From Marine Group II euryarchaeote MED-G33 (lineage in GTDB: Archaea; Thermoplasmatota; Poseidoniia; Poseidoniales; Thalassarchaeaceae): 35,692 bases of DNA. Below, one piece after another: positions 12,270 to 20,700 of the stretch. The notes beneath the pieces are model-generated. The model saw nothing but the letters and a program-made list of their open reading frames with translations. It was not told the DNA's origin and ran no database searches. Each line of letters begins with the position of its first letter. Position 1 is the first letter of the stretch. The position numbers were made by a program, and so were the translations under genes. The DNA is taken from positions 1-35,692 of the forward strand of contig NTJU01000004.1 in assembly GCA_002457195.1 (NCBI GenBank), written 5' to 3'.

Positions 12270-13112
12270 ATGGTCACGAAGGAACGTAGGCCGTGGAAAC
12301 CCCGTACGACGGCCAAATCCATGTACGGTTCAGGTGGCGCCGCTGACCCATTTCCATTGAGCCGCTCAAAGTTGGATCAATTCCACAAGTGTCCACGCTG
12401 CTTTTGGGTCGACCGAGTCGCAGGTATGCCCCATCCAGGTATGCCTGGCTTCGCACTCAACAGCCAAGTCGATGCGTTGCTCAAGAAGGAGTTTGATGCA
12501 CATCGCACAGCAGGCACCCCTCATCCGTACATGGTCGAGTATGGATTGGGTCATTTGGTCCCGCTCAATCATGACATGATGGACGACTGGAGGAACAACT
12601 TCAAGGGTGTTAGAACAGGTAAACATGGTCTCGAATTATTCGGTTCTGTGGACGATATTTGGTGTGACCCAAAAGAAGGTGGCGAATGGTTCGTCGTTGA
12701 TTACAAAGCAACTTCAAGTGCAGCTGATATGACTGTAGAACTGTTCTTTGAAGACATCTACAAAGGCAGCTATGTTCGCCAATTGGCCATCTACCAATGG
12801 ATCCTTCGTGAAATGGGTGCACCGGTTTCGAGTAAGGGCTACTTTGTCTACGAGAATGGCAACAAGGCTGTCGACTCGCTGATGGATGGGGGGCCGCCAG
12901 AAGCTCCGCGTGGCATCCCACTGAAACCTGTTCGAGTCATTGAGATTGACACCGCAGACCCCGATTGTGTTGTCGAAGGTGTCCGTATCGACATGGATTG
13001 GGTGGAAAACTTGGTGGCTGGAGCCAAGGCTTGTCTTGAGTTGGCTGCGCCGCCAGATGCCGGTGAGCACTGTGAGCACTGTCCATACGTTGCATCTGTA
13101 TCACAACTTTAG
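12270..13112 (+). CDS. PD-(D/E)XK superfamily nuclease (RecB/Cas4-like fold) with four Cys possibly binding Fe-S or Zn
   Basis: LSRSKLDQFHKCPRCFWVDRVAG, GSVDDIW...EWFVVDYKATSS, QLAIYQWIL, C-terminal HCEHCPYVAS. Confidence 0.82.
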   Translation: MVTKERRPWKPRTTAKSMYGSGGAADPFPLSRSKLDQFHKCPRCFWVDRVAGMPHPGMPGFALNSQVDALLKKEFDAHRTAGTPHPYMVEYGLGHLVPLNHDMMDDWRNNFKGVRTGKHGLELFGSVDDIWCDPKEGGEWFVVDYKATSSAADMTVELFFEDIYKGSYVRQLAIYQWILREMGAPVSSKGYFVYENGNKAVDSLMDGGPPEAPRGIPLKPVRVIEIDTADPDCVVEGVRIDMDWVENLVAGAKACLELAAPPDAGEHCEHCPYVASVSQL

Positions 13113-13399
13113 ATGCCTTTCCAATCAAGCAAACCCGCAAGCATCGGCCAGTGATACTTGAAATCAGCTTCGCTCATCCAATAGATGTCATCCTGCCAGC
13201 CATTTTGCAATCTGTGATGTCTCCAAGCGATGTAATCCTCATGCGTTTTCTCAGGGAAGAAAATGACAAACAGATGGCTAGAGACATACATCGGATCATA
13301 CTTCTCAATACCCATCGACCTCAACTTTGAGGGCCACTGGTTCTGACCGTGCTCTTCATTGAACTTGAGATAAGCATCCAGATACTTGCTGTCACTCAT
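13109..13399 (-). CDS. Uncharacterised 96-aa aromatic-rich protein
   Basis: Overlaps the upstream gene's stop by 4 nt (13396-13399), supporting translational coupling. Confidence 0.65.
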   Translation of the reverse strand: MSDSKYLDAYLKFNEEHGQNQWPSKLRSMGIEKYDPMYVSSHLFVIFFPEKTHEDYIAWRHHRLQNGWQDDIYWMSEADFKYHWPMLAGLLDWKGI

Positions 13400-14733
13400 C
13401 TGTAGTCCACCTCATCCAAGTGGAAGATGATTAATTCCTCAACATGTCCATCGTAGTCGATGAGTGCGGCTTCCAACTCATCCAAAGTCGCTAGACCATG
13501 CGAGATGGTTGCAAGCACATTGCTTTTGGAAAGTCTCAACAATTCTCTGGTCAAGTTCGGCGTGGCATCAGGGCCAGACCAAATCAGATTGGCAACCGGT
13601 CTTTTCCAATTGAAGAACGGTTGAAGATTGACGGCATTCTTAGTCAAAAAGATGTTCTCTTCGAGACACACTACTCTGAGATTTCTTCTCACACAGAGAC
13701 TCGCATTCTTGAGTGACAACCAATCGAGATGCTCTAGGATGTCGCCATGAACCAGCCTCACTTTCGTGTTGCCCATTTGCATGATTCTCTCGTTTCTCTC
13801 AACAGACCTCAACTTGTCTGGGTGGTCGATAAGCCATTGTAACCATTCGTCATACTGCTCGCTCTTCCACGAACTCTCTAGAGGCTCTGGATAGTTCGGC
13901 CTCTCAAACAGATTCGGATGGTCATAGTGATTGAACAACCTCTCACAGTATTCCTCATGCGTGGGGTGCTCAGGCCACCTTTCAGGCAGGGTTCCTTTGA
14001 GCTCCTCCAAATCCTCAGGGGCCAACCTCCTCTCTTTCATTAGGGTCACCAGGAAATCATCGGGATTTCCGAGAGAGTTGCTGTTGGACACCCTGAAGAC
14101 TTCAGCTTCAATCTCATTCTTGCCCCCGTTCAGTTCAACGTCCAGGATGAGCCACTCACCTTTGCCGACATGTTCCAACGTGATCCCAGGCGAGACCTCA
14201 AATTCGCCTTCGGGGAATTGCAACCATTGGTCGTAATCCTCATGCACGTTTTTTCTGTCGATGATGAGCACACCGCCATCCCTGACCTTCTCCACCATTT
14301 TGGGGGCGGCTGCCATGAACGTCGGCTTCCAATCTGGTTCACCATTATGGGTCAGGAAGATATCGATGAAATCGACATACATGATGTCAATTAAGGGGAA
14401 ATCCTCCATTCCCTTGTTGGCTTCCAACCCCCTGTGCACCAGCAAGTTCTGGAATGTTAGGTCGGGATTCCTGTAGGCCTGCCCGACCCCTTGTGGGTTC
14501 TGGAGTCTTGCGAAATACTCCATTCCATTGTTGCTGTGCTGCGCCCACCATCCATCAGGATACGCGGGTCCGAGGTCATCACAAACGAGCACGAACGGCT
14601 CGCCGTGATCGACCATCACGTTCCACGATGCGAGGTAGTTACCGTGGGCACCTGGGTGTGACACGATGAGAGGCCTGTCGTCGGCTTTTGGCAACGGTAC
14701 GTTGCAAAACACCTGATTGTTCTTCCACAGCAT
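13396..14733 (-). CDS. Uncharacterised protein, possible Rossmann/methyltransferase-like N-terminal part
   Basis: Long ORF; ATG at 14733 overlaps the upstream TGA (TGATG); PLIDIMYVDFIDIFLTHNG...KMVEKVRDGGVLIIDRKN resembles motif IV/V of SAM methyltransferases. Confidence 0.75.
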   Translation of the reverse strand: MLWKNNQVFCNVPLPKADDRPLIVSHPGAHGNYLASWNVMVDHGEPFVLVCDDLGPAYPDGWWAQHSNNGMEYFARLQNPQGVGQAYRNPDLTFQNLLVHRGLEANKGMEDFPLIDIMYVDFIDIFLTHNGEPDWKPTFMAAAPKMVEKVRDGGVLIIDRKNVHEDYDQWLQFPEGEFEVSPGITLEHVGKGEWLILDVELNGGKNEIEAEVFRVSNSNSLGNPDDFLVTLMKERRLAPEDLEELKGTLPERWPEHPTHEEYCERLFNHYDHPNLFERPNYPEPLESSWKSEQYDEWLQWLIDHPDKLRSVERNERIMQMGNTKVRLVHGDILEHLDWLSLKNASLCVRRNLRVVCLEENIFLTKNAVNLQPFFNWKRPVANLIWSGPDATPNLTRELLRLSKSNVLATISHGLATLDELEAALIDYDGHVEELIIFHLDEVDYR

Positions 14734-15278
14734 CACACACACCTCTTATGACCCTCAGGGACCACTCTGAAGATTCTCTTCGTCTGTCTTGCGAGCCTGT
14801 GATAATCGCTCGCCTTGCCTTGTGCATACCTATCTCCCTTGGCGGTGTCGATGATGACATCCTTGTGCATCGTTACGATGTGTGCTGTGCACAATTTGCC
14901 ATTATCATCGGGCTCATATGGGGGGTCATGGGAATAGAAGCACAGCAAGAACAAGTCATCGTGTCCGATGATCTCATCAATATAGTACTCAAGCCTCCTC
15001 AAATCGTTGTTACAGTACGCCAATTGCATCCCGTAGGGTGCCAGCGCTTTGGACCATGAGTGGGGGGATTGCGAATTGATGATGGGCATGAAATCCTCAG
15101 GCCCGACATCCGCTCCTGTCGCCCTTGCAAGCATCGCCAATGTTGTTGGCACACAGGTTGGACCAGTCTGCCTGATGTGCTGCAACTTAAGGTTCTCAAA
15201 GAACGGCCCTTCGGGCTCATCCTCGTCTGCAGCATCCCACAAAGGCGCGCTCGCGTTCGGCTTCCAAAGAAGACTCAT
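14733..15278 (-). CDS. Putative papain-like (C39-type) cysteine peptidase
   Basis: RQTGPTCVPTTLAMLARATGADVGPEDF (Gln plus catalytic Cys region) and TAHIVTMHKDVIIDTAKGD (His/Asp region). Confidence 0.7.
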   Translation of the reverse strand: MSLLWKPNASAPLWDAADEDEPEGPFFENLKLQHIRQTGPTCVPTTLAMLARATGADVGPEDFMPIINSQSPHSWSKALAPYGMQLAYCNNDLRRLEYYIDEIIGHDDLFLLCFYSHDPPYEPDDNGKLCTAHIVTMHKDVIIDTAKGDRYAQGKASDYHRLARQTKRIFRVVPEGHKRCV

Positions 15279-15481
15279 TCCCAGTCCTCCTCGAAGTCAT
15301 CTGGCCATGAACTCGGGTCACTACTAATGTTGAGGCCTTGACTCTCAACATGTTTGTTGAAATCTTTTAATCTCACTCTATCAAATTCGGTGCTGACCTC
15401 TACATTTGCCGTTCTTGCTTCAATCATCTTCGTAATTGCAATTATCATTTTCACTATTTCTTTTCCTATCATATATCTCAA
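15275..15481 (-). CDS. Uncharacterised 68-aa protein
   Basis: Overlaps the next gene by 4 nt and starts 1 nt after the preceding ORF. Confidence 0.55.
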   Translation of the reverse strand: MRYMIGKEIVKMIIAITKMIEARTANVEVSTEFDRVRLKDFNKHVESQGLNISSDPSSWPDDFEEDWE

Positions 15482-15482
15482 C

Positions 15483-16247
15483 TCACTGGTATTCCCAATC
15501 TTGGTCGGGGATTCCCCCCGGCCAGTTTTCTTCCATCCATTGCGCTCTTTCTAGGGCATCAACGTCTCTTTGACAGGCATATGCCCAAATCTCTGTATCG
15601 TCAATACACAAGCAAAGTAGGGAATATAGCGCGGATGGAAATGTATCATCCTCTGATTTTGAGAGGCACATCCAAGACTCTGTGAAGTAGGTCTGTGTAC
15701 CCCCTAATTCAGGGACGTGATCTGGACAGACCCAAAGAGCACCCAAACTGTGTTCTATGCAACTCGGTGAATTGTAAGGGATTGACCTCTGGATGAATCT
15801 CGAACCATATTTATCCTGAATTTCTTGAACATAACCCAACAACTCACCGGGTCCAATCCAAACCTCAGATTCAAACGAGATATCAAATGAAAATTCGGCA
15901 CCATGCTGGCCTTGAACTTCAATCGTATATTCGTCGACTTTGATGAATTCATTGTCGTGAATGAATTGCATCACTGACAGCCAGTGGGCCCTCAATGCTT
16001 TGGTTTCATCCGAATCATCATCGTTTTCAAAGTGAATTTCTGGATTCATCGCAGTTAAGCAAAGCTCCCACTCTGGCCACGTATCCCAAGGTATACCTTG
16101 TTGGATGTTGGCTTGATTGTAGGCCACAAAGATGGTCATCACATTCTCAATCTGCGAGAAGTTCGCATGGTTGTGGTCAATCATTTCCTCGGGGGGGGTG
16201 TATCCCGTGCTATTTTGGTCACTTTCATTCATTTTCTTCATCTCCAT
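15483..16247 (-). CDS. Uncharacterised acidic 254-aa protein
   Basis: Full ORF; start ambiguous among several nearby ATGs (MEMKKMNESDQ). Confidence 0.7.
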   Translation of the reverse strand: MEMKKMNESDQNSTGYTPPEEMIDHNHANFSQIENVMTIFVAYNQANIQQGIPWDTWPEWELCLTAMNPEIHFENDDDSDETKALRAHWLSVMQFIHDNEFIKVDEYTIEVQGQHGAEFSFDISFESEVWIGPGELLGYVQEIQDKYGSRFIQRSIPYNSPSCIEHSLGALWVCPDHVPELGGTQTYFTESWMCLSKSEDDTFPSALYSLLCLCIDDTEIWAYACQRDVDALERAQWMEENWPGGIPDQDWEYQ

Positions 16248-16283
16248 ATTTTTGTATTTTCATTTTCATTTTGTTTTTTGAAT

Positions 16284-16359
16284 TGGCGGGCATGCTGGGA
16301 TTTGAACCCAGGTCAGGAGTATCGCAGACTCCTGTGATATCCACTACATTCACATGCCC
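16284..16359 (-). tRNA. tRNA-Arg (anticodon GCG), with encoded CCA
   Basis: GGGCATG...GGAGT CTGCGAT ACTCC...CTGGG TTCAAAT CCCAG CATGCCC G CCA; 7-bp acceptor, anticodon and T arms pair; D arm non-standard. Confidence 0.87.
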
Positions 16360-16379
16360 TTGTAGCAGACTCAAACCGG

Positions 16380-16451
16380 TGAGGGTGCCCGGAGTCGAAC
16401 CGGGATCCAGGGGTTCGAAACCCCCGATGCTATCCGTTACACCACACCCCC
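16380..16451 (-). tRNA. tRNA-Arg (anticodon UCG)
   Basis: GGGGGTGTGGTGTAACGGATAGCATC GGGGG TTTCGAA CCCCT GGATCCCGGTTCGACTCCGGGCACCCTC; acceptor, anticodon and T arms pair; no encoded CCA. Confidence 0.92.
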
Positions 16452-16458
16452 AAGAAGC

Positions 16459-16483
16459 GGGCGTTATCGAAAAGAAAACGCCC
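16459..16483. repeat. Inverted repeat GGGCGTT-11 nt-AACGCCC upstream of the tRNA pair
   Basis: Seven-bp arms read directly. Confidence 0.7.
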
Positions 16484-16519: not shown

Positions 16520-16936
16520 TTACAAGGTTTCGAATGCACGCTCATAGGATCGAACTCGACAGCGATGTCGATCCCACCTACTGAACTGTTCCATGTGCAT
16601 TTGACTCACCTTTTCCTCGCAGCAAAACCCCATAAGTGGGTCACCTTTATCAAACTTACGTTTTCCTGTTAGTTTTTCTGAAAACACCTTGGTAAATTCA
16701 TTTTTAGAGCGATTAACCATTTTACCCGTAGGGTAATTATCCACCCAAGTCCACTTTTTTGTTGATTTTAACAAATCAGTGACCACCCGAGCCAACTTCG
16801 TGCCAACAGGTGATACAGGCATAACCGGTCTGACTGAATCCAATGTCTTCTTCCAACCAATGGGCCGCACAAACCCAGCCATCACCCATGCATAGATATC
16901 CTGTACATTTGTGCTCGACAAGACCATCGCAATCAT
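16520..16936 (-). CDS. Uncharacterised basic/Cys-containing protein; 5' boundary uncertain
   Basis: The ORF overlaps the upstream zinc-finger ORF by about 160 nt; the real start may be an internal GTG/ATG near the upstream stop (VVTDLLKSTKKW... or MVNRSKNEF...). Confidence 0.4.
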   Translation of the reverse strand: MIAMVLSSTNVQDIYAWVMAGFVRPIGWKKTLDSVRPVMPVSPVGTKLARVVTDLLKSTKKWTWVDNYPTGKMVNRSKNEFTKVFSEKLTGKRKFDKGDPLMGFCCEEKVSQMHMEQFSRWDRHRCRVRSYERAFETL

Positions 16937-17123
16937 CGATCTGGCAATACTTCGGTTGACTGATTACAGTTTCATATTGACCTTTGCAAGTCGTACAAGG
17001 TAGATGATATCTCCAGGGATGTTTACCCGATTTATTTTCTTTCCAATGTACAGTCCTACCCCTTACACAATCAGGGCATATCACAGTTTTTTCAATCCAT
17101 TCCTCATTCTCTTTTTCACTCAT
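16776..17123 (-). CDS. Small Cys-rich zinc-binding protein
   Basis: VICPDCVRG, LPCTTCKG, YCQIDDCDG, CTGYLCMGDGWVCAAH, YACITCWH. ATG at 17123 overlaps the SprT-like gene's TAA (TAATG). Confidence 0.65.
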   Translation of the reverse strand: MSEKENEEWIEKTVICPDCVRGRTVHWKENKSGKHPWRYHLPCTTCKGQYETVISQPKYCQIDDCDGLVEHKCTGYLCMGDGWVCAAHWLEEDIGFSQTGYACITCWHEVGSGGH

Positions 17124-17662
17124 TATTCCACCTCTATCCATCCTCTATCAGTTGCATTTGGTTTCCTTTTACCGAAGCCAAACCCCCAAAAGTTATGGAA
17201 CATTCTCGCATAATTATCTCTCGAATAAAAGAAGTAAATGCCATACTCTGCGTTCATTTCTCTTTCCATTTTTCTAAACATAGAACCATGGCCATCTGTG
17301 TTGATTTTGAAGTAGTGATGAAAATAGTGATGAATGAATTCATGGATGACTGTATGGACTCTTTCTGCAACCTGATACCTATGCTTGATTTTAATCGGAA
17401 TTGATCTATCATTGCCAGAGATTCTGCATTTTTGTCCATCAAATGCAATATACCTTACAAACTCATCTGATTTATCATCCTGAGCCCACCAAAAGGCGCA
17501 GGCCCAAACACCAGCTCCAGCAAACCATTCCACCCAACTCTTGGACTTCACGATCACTTTGATTGCTGGCACGTCATACTCAATGCACATCTGATTAACA
17601 AATGCTTGAACCTCTGAGCAACTGTCAATCTTAGGCCATTTCTTTATTTTTGATTTCCACAT
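17123..17662 (-). CDS. SprT-like zinc metalloprotease
   Basis: VHTVIHEFIHHYFHHYFKINTDGHGSMFRKMEREMNAEYGIYF: HExxH followed by HGxxF. Coordinates as in the ORF track; my own hand count of the 5' end differed by about 2 nt. Confidence 0.75.
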   Translation of the reverse strand: MWKSKIKKWPKIDSCSEVQAFVNQMCIEYDVPAIKVIVKSKSWVEWFAGAGVWACAFWWAQDDKSDEFVRYIAFDGQKCRISGNDRSIPIKIKHRYQVAERVHTVIHEFIHHYFHHYFKINTDGHGSMFRKMEREMNAEYGIYFFYSRDNYARMFHNFWGFGFGKRKPNATDRGWIEVE

Positions 17663-17742: not shown

Positions 17743-20700
17743 TCAATTGACTTGGAAGGAAATCCCAGCCCCATCTACATCGAAGGATTCTGAACCTTCA
17801 GGTGGTTGACCCCCCTGGTCTAGGATTGCAGCCTTGGCTCGCACCTCAGATACGATGTGATCCCAATCTCCACCGAGCAACTCAGGGTTGTTTTCATCGA
17901 GCCAAACAGAAAGGGAAATGGTTGCATCTACATCAAGATCCAAATCCTTGCGCTTTTGCTGAACGCGACGGATAATCTCACGAGCAAGACCCATGGATAG
18001 CAACTCATCGGTGACCGTCATGTCAAGCACCAATGTGACATCGCTGTCTTCGGCAGTCATGGCGGCAAAGCCTTCGCGCTCAACGCGCCTGACTTCGACA
18101 TCAATCGGTTCCAACTCAAAGCCCGCAATGATGCATCTGCCATTCTGAATATCATCCCACAATGCTTCGGGATCTGCTTCTGCGAGAGCGGCCATCACCT
18201 TGGGCAAGTCTTGCCGACATTTGCGTCCGAGCGTTTTGCGATTGGGTGCAACCTCGATGCGCTGGAAGCGATCAAGATCGTTTTCAGTTTGCAAATCAAG
18301 GACGTTGATTTCTTCGGCGAGAATCGGATAAAACTCATCGATTCCACTGGCACCAACCAGCCATCCCGTCTGACAGGGCAAGCGCTGACGATGATCGTTC
18401 TCAACACGGACCTTACGGCCAGCCTCAGCTAGATTACGAACCAGTTGCATGCGTGCCTCGAGGTCTGAATCTTGGTGCTGTGGTGTTGGCCAATCGGCGA
18501 GGTGAACACTCTCGCCCGTAAGGTTGCGATAGATTTCGTCCACCATGAATGGGGAGACTGGGGCGATTAGGCGGCATAGTGTAGTGAGGACATCGTGCAA
18601 TGTGTGTTGGCAAGCCAACTTGTCAGCACTGTCACCCTCATCCCACAATCGGCGACGACTTCGTCGGACATACCAGTTGGACAAATCGTTGACCACGAAT
18701 TCTTCCAAATCACGGCAGGCCTTGTGGAAATCCCAACCTTCGAATTGATCATGGTAGTCTGCTGCGACGGAATTGAGCTTAGACAAAATCCATCGATCCA
18801 ATGATGAACGACTTTCGACAGGGCAATCATTTGCTTCTGGATCGAAGTTGTCTAGCGCTGCATAATCAGCATGGAACCTGTAACAATTCCACAATGTGAG
18901 AAACATCTTGGCATAGGTTTCACGCACGCCATTAGGGTCGAATTTCATTGGATTCCAAGGCGCACCAGCAGTCACCATGTACCAGCGTGTGGCATCGGCA
19001 CCTTCTCGGTTGAAGTGATCCCATGGGTCGACAATATTACCCTTGGATTTGGACATCTTCTTGCCTTCTGCATCCAAGATGAGACCGAGAGACAAACAGC
19101 GCTTGTAGCAAATCGAATCGAACACGGTTGTACTGACTGCAAGCAAGGTGTAGAACCAACCTCGGGTCTGGTCCACCCCCTCGCAAATGTAGTCGATTGG
19201 GAAATTGTTCTCAAACTTCTCAGGATCATCGAACGGATGGTGCCACTGTGCGAATGAGGCGCACCCAGAATCGAACCAACAATCCATGACGAAGGGCTCG
19301 CGGTGCATCACATCTCCACTGTCAGTAACAAGAGTGTAGTCGTCGACGATTGGACGGTGTAAATCGACATCATCGGGGCAATCTGGATTGCTATGACCAG
19401 CTGCATTGGCCTTGGCAACTTCTGCCTGCAATTCTTCAATCGAACCGACACACTTCATTTCGCCAGAGGCGGAACGCCAAACGGGCAGAGGTGTGCCCCA
19501 ATATCGCTCGCGGGAAATCGCCCAATCCTTGACATTGCGCAACCATTCTCCAAAGCGGCCTTCGCCAACCCAATCGGGTGCCCATTCAACTTGATTATTG
19601 AATTCCAACAAGCGTTCCTTGACGGCAGTCATTCGAACAAACCAAGAGTCCATGGCGTAGTAGAGAAGAGGATGATCGGTTCGCCAACAGTGCGGGTATT
19701 CGTGAGCATATTCCTTCTCACGATAGAGGAGATTTGATTCCATCAAAATCTCCATGATGGTGTCATCACATTCCTTGACATAACGACCGTCAAGTTGGGA
19801 GTGTGTTCCTTTGAGGAAGGCACCATCCATCCCCACAGTGTGTTGTGCGGGAAGACCCACTTCCATTCCGAGATTGTAGTCATCCTCACCATACATGACC
19901 GCGGTGTGAACTACACCGGTTCCATCGGTGGTCGTGACCCAATCCGCCTCAAGGATGGTCCATGCGGTTTGTGAATCGCCTCTGTCAACCGCACCAGGGA
20001 AGAGAGGTTCGTAGGCCTTACCAACCAATTCAGAGCCGGGGAATTCTTCGAGGATTGTTGCATGGTGACGAATGACTTCCTTGAACAGGTCCTTGGCGAT
20101 GATTACCACCTCACCCACTTCAGCACCACCACGACCTTCCCAATTGTCTCCAGCTGGTTGGTCGATTCGAACTCGAACATAGGTCACATCGGGGCCAACG
20201 GCCAGACCAACGTTACCCGGTAGTGTCCAAGGCGTTGTAGTCCAAGCGAGGACTGAGGCGTCTTCATCGATGAGTTTGAATTTGACATAGACGGAAGGTT
20301 CGACCACTTCCTTGTAGCCGAGGGCAACTTCGTGACTGGAGTAAGATGTGCCCGTTTGTGGACAATATGGCAAAACCTTGTGACCTCTAAAGAGCAAATC
20401 CTTGTCGAACATTTGTTTCAATGCCCACCAGCAGGACTCGACGTAATTGTTGTGCAGTGTCACATAAGGATCATCCAAATCAACCCAGAATGCCATACGT
20501 TCAGTCATCTCTCTCCATGCTTGCTCATAGGTCCAGACACTGTTGCGACATTCTTCATTAAATTCAGCCATACCGAATGCTTCAATCGCTTCATTGCTCA
20601 TCAAATCTAGACGCTTCTGAACCTCAATTTCAACCGGCAACCCATGGGTGTCCCATCCTCCCTTTCGCTCGACGAAGTGACCTTCCATGGCCTTCCACCG

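Follow-up and report, generated by a model that had tools for sequence, protein, structure and literature searches.

How can an operon placed directly behind two arginine tRNA genes come to contain none of the codons which those tRNAs read? The question is raised by a locus of Marine Group II euryarchaeote MED-G33 (assembly GCA_002457195.1), a member of the Poseidoniales. These archaea abound in the surface ocean and are for the most part uncultured, and little is known of their defences. The stretch analyzed here, hereafter the window, is one whole contig of 35,692 nt (NTJU01000004.1) from this 75% complete genome. It carries five minus-strand open reading frames, referred to as genes A to E, downstream of a tRNA-Arg(TCG) and a tRNA-Arg(GCG) gene. 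An initial annotation had described the five frames, their overlaps and the upstream tRNA-Arg pair, and all of these were present as claimed: A and B are separated by a 1-nt gap, B and C overlap by 4 nt, C and D meet in a TGATG at 14733, D and E overlap by 4 nt, and the start of gene A lies 36 nt past the tRNA end. We propose, at a probability of roughly 0.45, that operon and tRNAs make up a conflict module which is tied to tRNAs, exempt from CGN codons and most likely directed against viruses.

CGN codons are excluded from the operon

None of the 45 arginine codons of genes A–E is CGN, and the same holds for the 15 arginine codons of two genes further upstream, encoding a SprT-like and a zinc-ribbon-like protein (0/60 for the unit as a whole). 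In the rest of the window 84–85% of the arginine codons are CGN, and genome-wide the share is 77% in the window's own genome and 83% in a closed genome; at the genomic probability of 0.77, 0/60 would arise by chance with a probability near 10^-38. Open reading frames with at least five arginine codons and no CGN were found once among 295 in 400 kb of the window's own genome and once among 289 in 400 kb of the closed genome. The sole such frame in the former (L311 842-1312, on G000:C13) encodes 156 aa, with 0/11 arginine codons CGN and a GC content of 0.40. The related loci, to which we refer as cassettes, show the same exclusion. Genes were trimmed by hidden Markov model (HMM) at every locus except seven that were degenerate, detached or divergent in A; CGN made up 21 of 1893 arginine codons in these 197 cassette genes, and 1 of 478 in gene C alone.

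Resolved by phase, the observed/expected ratio of CpG was 0.01 in the CGN phase, 0.90 in the NCG phase and 0.84 across codon borders. Usage of the remaining codons follows that of the flanks; after CGN the strongest depletion is that of CTC (0.68-fold), and the GC content at third codon positions (GC3) is 0.458 in the unit vs 0.452 in the flanks. Since the loss of CpG is confined to the CGN phase while the other codons and GC3 are normal, the effect lies at the level of codon reading, and the phase-resolved counts together with GC3 ruled out CpG depletion or base composition as its cause. Codon compensation, in which the tRNAs would supply codons needed by the operon, was also ruled out, because the operon uses none of those codons.

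In a few carriers gene D is exchanged for unrelated genes (c85, c87). As the last gene in L182 and L183, c85 has 1 CGY but 18 CGR among its 33 arginine codons, CGY being the codons of tRNA-Arg(GCG); the neighbour genes in L182 show 45% CGY, and at 0.45 the deficit in c85 has a p of ~8e-8. The view of c85, c87 and c48 as uniform "variable effectors" was rejected: c85 alone shows clear codon avoidance, restricted to CGY, and c48, a membrane protein, lies outside the codon signal.

The tRNA-Arg pair is part of the unit

We examined 54 C genes, three of which lay too near a contig end, and in 49 of the 51 testable loci a same-strand tRNA-Arg gene was found 389–2304 nt upstream of C. The tRNAs follow the order TCG (sometimes ACG), then GCG. 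The ACG anticodon takes the place of TCG in L035, L036, L037, L039, L040, L246 and L052; a tRNA-Arg with A34 is unusual in archaea. Single-linkage clustering by neighbour genes sorted the loci into 18 context groups, of which three lack flanks, and the similarity between the window and its close relative L002 (about 82% DNA identity) is confined to 13127–16462, a stretch bounded by the end of E and a point 11 nt past the first tRNA. Since the flanking genes vary and this similarity spans the tRNAs to E, tRNAs and operon form one unit; since it takes in the whole tRNA pair, starting 11 nt 5′ of it, the tRNAs move intact with the unit. A Pfam profile search detected no integrase among the unit's genes. 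The initial annotation had confined the module to 13109–16247: the operon there is real, but the tRNAs belong to the unit and the CGN-free genes reach 17662.

The cassette tRNAs are extra copies, divergent from the canonical tRNA-Arg(TCG). A separate canonical tRNA-Arg(TCG), differing from the cassette copy, lies on another contig of the window's genome, and the canonical gene was found in 257 of 293 Poseidoniales genomes, in both families and in most carriers. That the cassette tRNA-Arg(TCG) might be the sole copy in a closed genome, G002, was rejected, a canonical, intron-bearing copy being present there (L163). The latter spans G002:C1:31780-31877, and its stored sequence holds Ns within. 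In the alignment, two D-loop bases of all five canonical tRNA-Arg examples are missing in the cassette tRNAs.

Divergent, fast-evolving tRNAs which sometimes carry ACG, together with a GNAT-like protein (F) encoded in part of the cassettes, would fit codon ambiguity, in which a different amino acid or a modified form of arginine is placed at CGN by the cassette tRNAs or by enzymes that act on these, and the operon avoids CGN for the sake of accuracy. We regard this as unlikely, as the cassette tRNAs retain the GGATA D-loop core and the NCG anticodons of canonical arginine tRNAs, and a constitutive form of such ambiguity would harm a genome with 77–83% CGN.

The operon is conserved in Poseidoniales only. 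Gene C was found in 62 and gene D in 55 of the 293 Poseidoniales genomes, and in a phylum sample of 390 genomes all 33 with C belong to Poseidoniales. C and D are rare in the window's own family, and the second family holds most carriers. The genes co-occur and the order A-(B)-C-D-(E) is repeated across carriers, in dozens of Poseidoniales genomes, which is not chance and bears out the earlier proposal of one coupled accessory module. Gene F sits between the tRNAs and A or C in many cassettes and is missing from the window. The most conserved gene is C, with identities across carriers as low as 53–60%.

An ordinary tRNA-adjacent island, or a housekeeping operon on a tRNA promoter, would account for the tight placement behind the tRNAs and for stable inheritance within genera, with CGN avoidance as a form of rate or regulatory tuning and no conflict involved. 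Among the explanations considered here this is the least probable, given the near-absolute loss of exactly one codon box, far beyond tuning, the patchy distribution (62/293 genomes) and the same avoidance in virus-like contigs, to which we now turn.

Codon avoidance in virus-like contigs

The SprT-like gene scores 28.3 bits against the Pfam SprT-like family (cut-off 25.6), and the 121-aa zinc-ribbon-like protein has a weak, below-cut-off match to an Elf1-type zinc ribbon. Relatives of the SprT-like gene occur in 10 of the 293 genomes, and the two genes also form a stand-alone CGN-free pair in other Poseidoniales genomes. Pairs of this kind, CGN-free among CGN-rich neighbours and with no tRNA cassette, were observed at L332 1464-2383 and L334 1555-2449.

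One SprT relative lies on a 49-kb contig of 32% GC (G114:C25; L329, L330, L341), in which CGN occurs once in 563 arginine codons and CpG is normal in the other phases. Its genes include ribonucleotide reductase, a PCNA-like protein, ERCC4, a 5′-3′ exonuclease and a tRNA-Arg(TCT), as well as a 1146-aa protein in which a CCA-transferase-like domain lies; the contig also gave a weak match resembling a class I tRNA synthetase. We take this contig to be a putative virus, because, judged by reductase and ERCC4, its closest relatives are IMG/VR contigs of 34–150 kb. Of the relatives, L340 has 2 CGY in 275 arginine codons, with 64 CGR, and L339 has 4 CGY in 123, with 41 CGR; L343 and L344 mainly avoid CGT, and L337 and L338 use CGN freely. 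The codons shunned by L339, L340 and L343 (CGT/CGC or mainly CGT) match those of tRNA-Arg(GCG), and CGA and CGG are used. Low GC alone does not explain the viral pattern, since in L340 CGT is nearly absent and CGA is common.

The SprT relative in a CGN-free virus-like contig might also suggest that the cassette was acquired from a CGN-free virus lineage and has merely retained its codon usage. This is very unlikely, as the cassette is like its host in GC3 and in every other codon, and the divergence of C across carriers (identity down to 53–60%) would have left time enough to regain CGN. C copies separated from the tRNA did regain it: the only two without a same-strand upstream tRNA-Arg (G122 and G182) use CGN for 7/12 and 12/16 of their arginine codons. 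The absence of A–F homologues from the virus-like contigs also speaks against such a relic. The cassette as part of known viruses was rejected, no match to C, D or the SprT-like protein being found in IMG/VR.

Proteins encoded by the cassette

The features of the locus are collected in Table 1. None of the proteins A–E reached a Pfam threshold or matched a PHROGs family. The protease-like character given to C by the initial annotation was supported: Q37, C42, H133 and D144 are invariant in a 23-member alignment and stand in the order expected for C39/papain-like peptidases, and C scores 12.8 bits against Pfam C39_2 (PF13529; threshold 24), with a sub-threshold match in 11 of the 23 members. 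A profile search of the PDB gave no match for C. The AlphaFold2 (AF2) model of C, built with a two-sequence alignment, is of low confidence (predicted local distance difference test score, pLDDT, 45), and on this model Foldseek ranked the C39 protein PCAT1 second (prob 0.84, E 0.11) and staphopain third (prob 0.35, E 0.36). C is probably a C39/papain-like cysteine protease.

Gene A is fast evolving and divergent save for a conserved C-terminal tail, WPxGxPxDWxYx, which is plausibly a recognition or cleavage site, and several B proteins match positions 25–88 of the A-family profile, its N-terminal part. An Rpo13-like segment in A (E 0.003), an acidic helical stretch, and a PUF match of A were judged to be chance. 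D had been credited with a possible methyltransferase-like segment, but a canonical methyltransferase was not supported: in place of GxGxG, motif I of class I SAM methyltransferases, the conserved segment is HPxAxxxY, no family threshold was reached, and the resemblance to FtsJ- or glycine N-methyltransferase (GNMT)-like enzymes was too weak, with just a 30-residue GNMT-like stretch at E=0.2. A Rossmann-like segment around residues 116–164 of D is possible. Protein F, with a nearly invariant RxxGHG-type acetyl-CoA loop (GNAT RxxGxG/A) and matches to Acetyltransf_1 (E 2.2e-4, best member only) and to RibT in the PDB (E 2.8e-4), is GNAT-like; a Cys/His cluster lies in its C-terminal part, and no DNA-binding antitoxin was observed as its partner.

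Table 1. Features of the CGN-free unit in the window.
Feature	Position	Strand	Description
Gene A	15483-16247	(-)	254 aa; 0/5 Arg codons CGN
Gene B	15275-15481	(-)	68 aa, TTG start; 0/4 Arg codons CGN
Gene C	14733-15278	(-)	181 aa, candidate C39/papain-like cysteine peptidase; 0/10 Arg codons CGN
Gene D	13396-14742	(-)	448 aa from GTG, 445 aa from ATG at 14733; 0/23 Arg codons CGN
Gene E	13109-13399	(-)	96 aa, optional in cassettes; 0/3 Arg codons CGN
Extra tRNA-Arg(GCG)	16284-16359	(-)	ARAGORN 16284-16353, covariance model 16287-16359; CCA encoded; reads CGC/CGT
Extra tRNA-Arg(TCG)	16378-16451	(-)	Reads CGA/CGG; homologues precede the operon in nearly all cassettes
Zinc-ribbon-like gene	16776-17141	(-)	121 aa; 0/4 Arg codons CGN; overlaps SprT-like gene by 19 nt
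SprT-like zinc metalloprotease gene	17123-17662	(-)	Accessory part; 0/11 Arg codons CGN

A tRNA-Cys called by ARAGORN at 17774-17860 falls within the isoleucyl-tRNA synthetase gene and is probably a false positive.

A proposed conflict over CGN decoding

Because CGN-free genes travel with spare CGN tRNAs, we suggest that their expression is needed when ordinary CGN decoding fails, and the virus-like contigs with matching avoidance, some of it at the codons of one isoacceptor, suggest a host–virus conflict over tRNA-Arg. Our tentative proposal is that in a fight between Poseidoniales and their viruses CGN decoding, or its CGY half, would be disabled in infected cells, that both sides would purge those codons, and that the operon with its tRNA-Arg pair would be the host's codon-exempt weapon. 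Such a mechanism, which we infer, goes beyond the anatomy and the codon statistics. The operon would be read through from the tRNA transcription unit and translated while the ordinary CGN-reading tRNA-Arg is destroyed, blocked or mis-charged. The module itself would cause the failure of CGN decoding, with protease C acting on A/B or on another protein and thereby releasing D or another effector; versions bearing F might perhaps acetylate Arg-tRNA. CGN-rich host and virus genes would stall and the module's own genes would not, and the structurally distinct cassette tRNAs, being spared, would serve recovery or act as a guard holding the effector in check. Viruses would respond by purging CGN, or CGT/CGC only, from their genomes.

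The extra divergent tRNAs and the CGN-free genes would be jointly accounted for also if the attack came from the other side, that is, if viruses destroyed or disabled the host's CGN-reading tRNA-Arg and the cassette brought resistant CGN tRNAs and CGN-free genes, so that the defence (protease C and its partners) could still be made. Such an attack would not harm a virus-like contig which lacks CGN and itself encodes a tRNA-Arg(TCT), and phage tRNAs have been proposed to evade tRNA-targeting enzymes (PMC10264068). We nevertheless consider this doubtful, as no tRNA nuclease was recognised in the virus-like contig G114:C25 and the attack would have to vary, viral relatives avoiding CGY only or nothing. 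Moreover, we know of no established virus-encoded shut-off of CGN-reading tRNAs. We favour the reading in which the module attacks the CGN tRNAs; the withstanding of a viral attack is its main rival, and codon ambiguity comes third.

Several observations weigh against an antiviral, codon-exempt module. The PADLOC defence models gave no convincing match, a CARF match to D (E 0.024) being judged chance, and in A, B, D and E neither a nuclease domain nor one for tRNA modification could be recognised. The structure models are poor (pLDDT 45 for C and 34 for D). A fragmentary D copy downstream of a tRNA-Arg(ACG) in G059 (L052) uses CGN for 8/9 of its arginine codons, and the decayed, broken-up cassette of G122 (L186) uses CGN though the cassette-type tRNA is retained; both look degenerate. 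The link to viruses depends on a single 49-kb contig from a bin together with a small number of relatives, the virus-like contigs encode no A–F homologue, and no cassette protein had a match in IMG/VR. Acetylation cannot be the general mechanism, because neither the window nor most g12/g13 cassettes carry F. A defence or toxin function, as suggested earlier from the protease-like protein and its partners, is consistent with the new evidence, but its basis is now a different one, namely CGN exclusion tied to CGN-reading tRNAs.

Relation to known systems and significance

In the literature searched (open-licence papers) we found no description of such an operon; the closest ideas there are phage tRNAs evading defences that target tRNA (PMC10264068) and archaeal CreT toxins sequestering a tRNA (PMC8501985). 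To our knowledge, a locus that almost completely lacks one codon box and is coupled to genes of exactly the tRNAs which read that box is undescribed. As with the anticodon nucleases PrrC/RloC and with Septu, PARIS and VapC, specific tRNA isoacceptors are apparently contested and the opponent responds through changes in its tRNAs or codons; unlike these systems, the cassette has no homologous protein, and it carries tRNAs together with genes purged of their codons. Protein C resembles the C39/papain-like peptidases in the order of its conserved Q, C, H and D, but it stays below the Pfam threshold and no transporter or precursor peptide was recognised nearby. A GNAT-like F beside tRNA-Arg genes in part of the cassettes recalls the toxins TacT and AtaT, which acetylate aminoacyl-tRNA, but the window lacks F, and F differs in its Cys/His cluster and in having no visible DNA-binding antitoxin partner.

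Arginine tRNA is among the targets of CreT. The CreT toxins of the archaeal CreTA RNA toxin-antitoxin system are described as sequestering a tRNA (PMC8501985), and CreTA is similar to the cassette as an archaeal system that involves tRNA; CreT is an RNA toxin under CRISPR-Cas control, whereas the cassette is a protein operon with tRNA genes, and no CRISPR was seen. Phage-encoded tRNAs also are extra tRNAs unlike those of the host in a setting of tRNA attack, and no difference in frequency was reported for the codons of these tRNAs (PMC10264068). In contrast to these phage tRNAs, the cassette tRNAs are chromosomal in the host, linked to a protein operon and coupled to total codon exclusion.

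The avoidance of one codon box would offer a homology-independent sequence signature for genes that must function when a given tRNA is gone, and it makes testable both an isoacceptor-specific shutdown of translation as an archaeal defence and a rewriting of viral codons in response.

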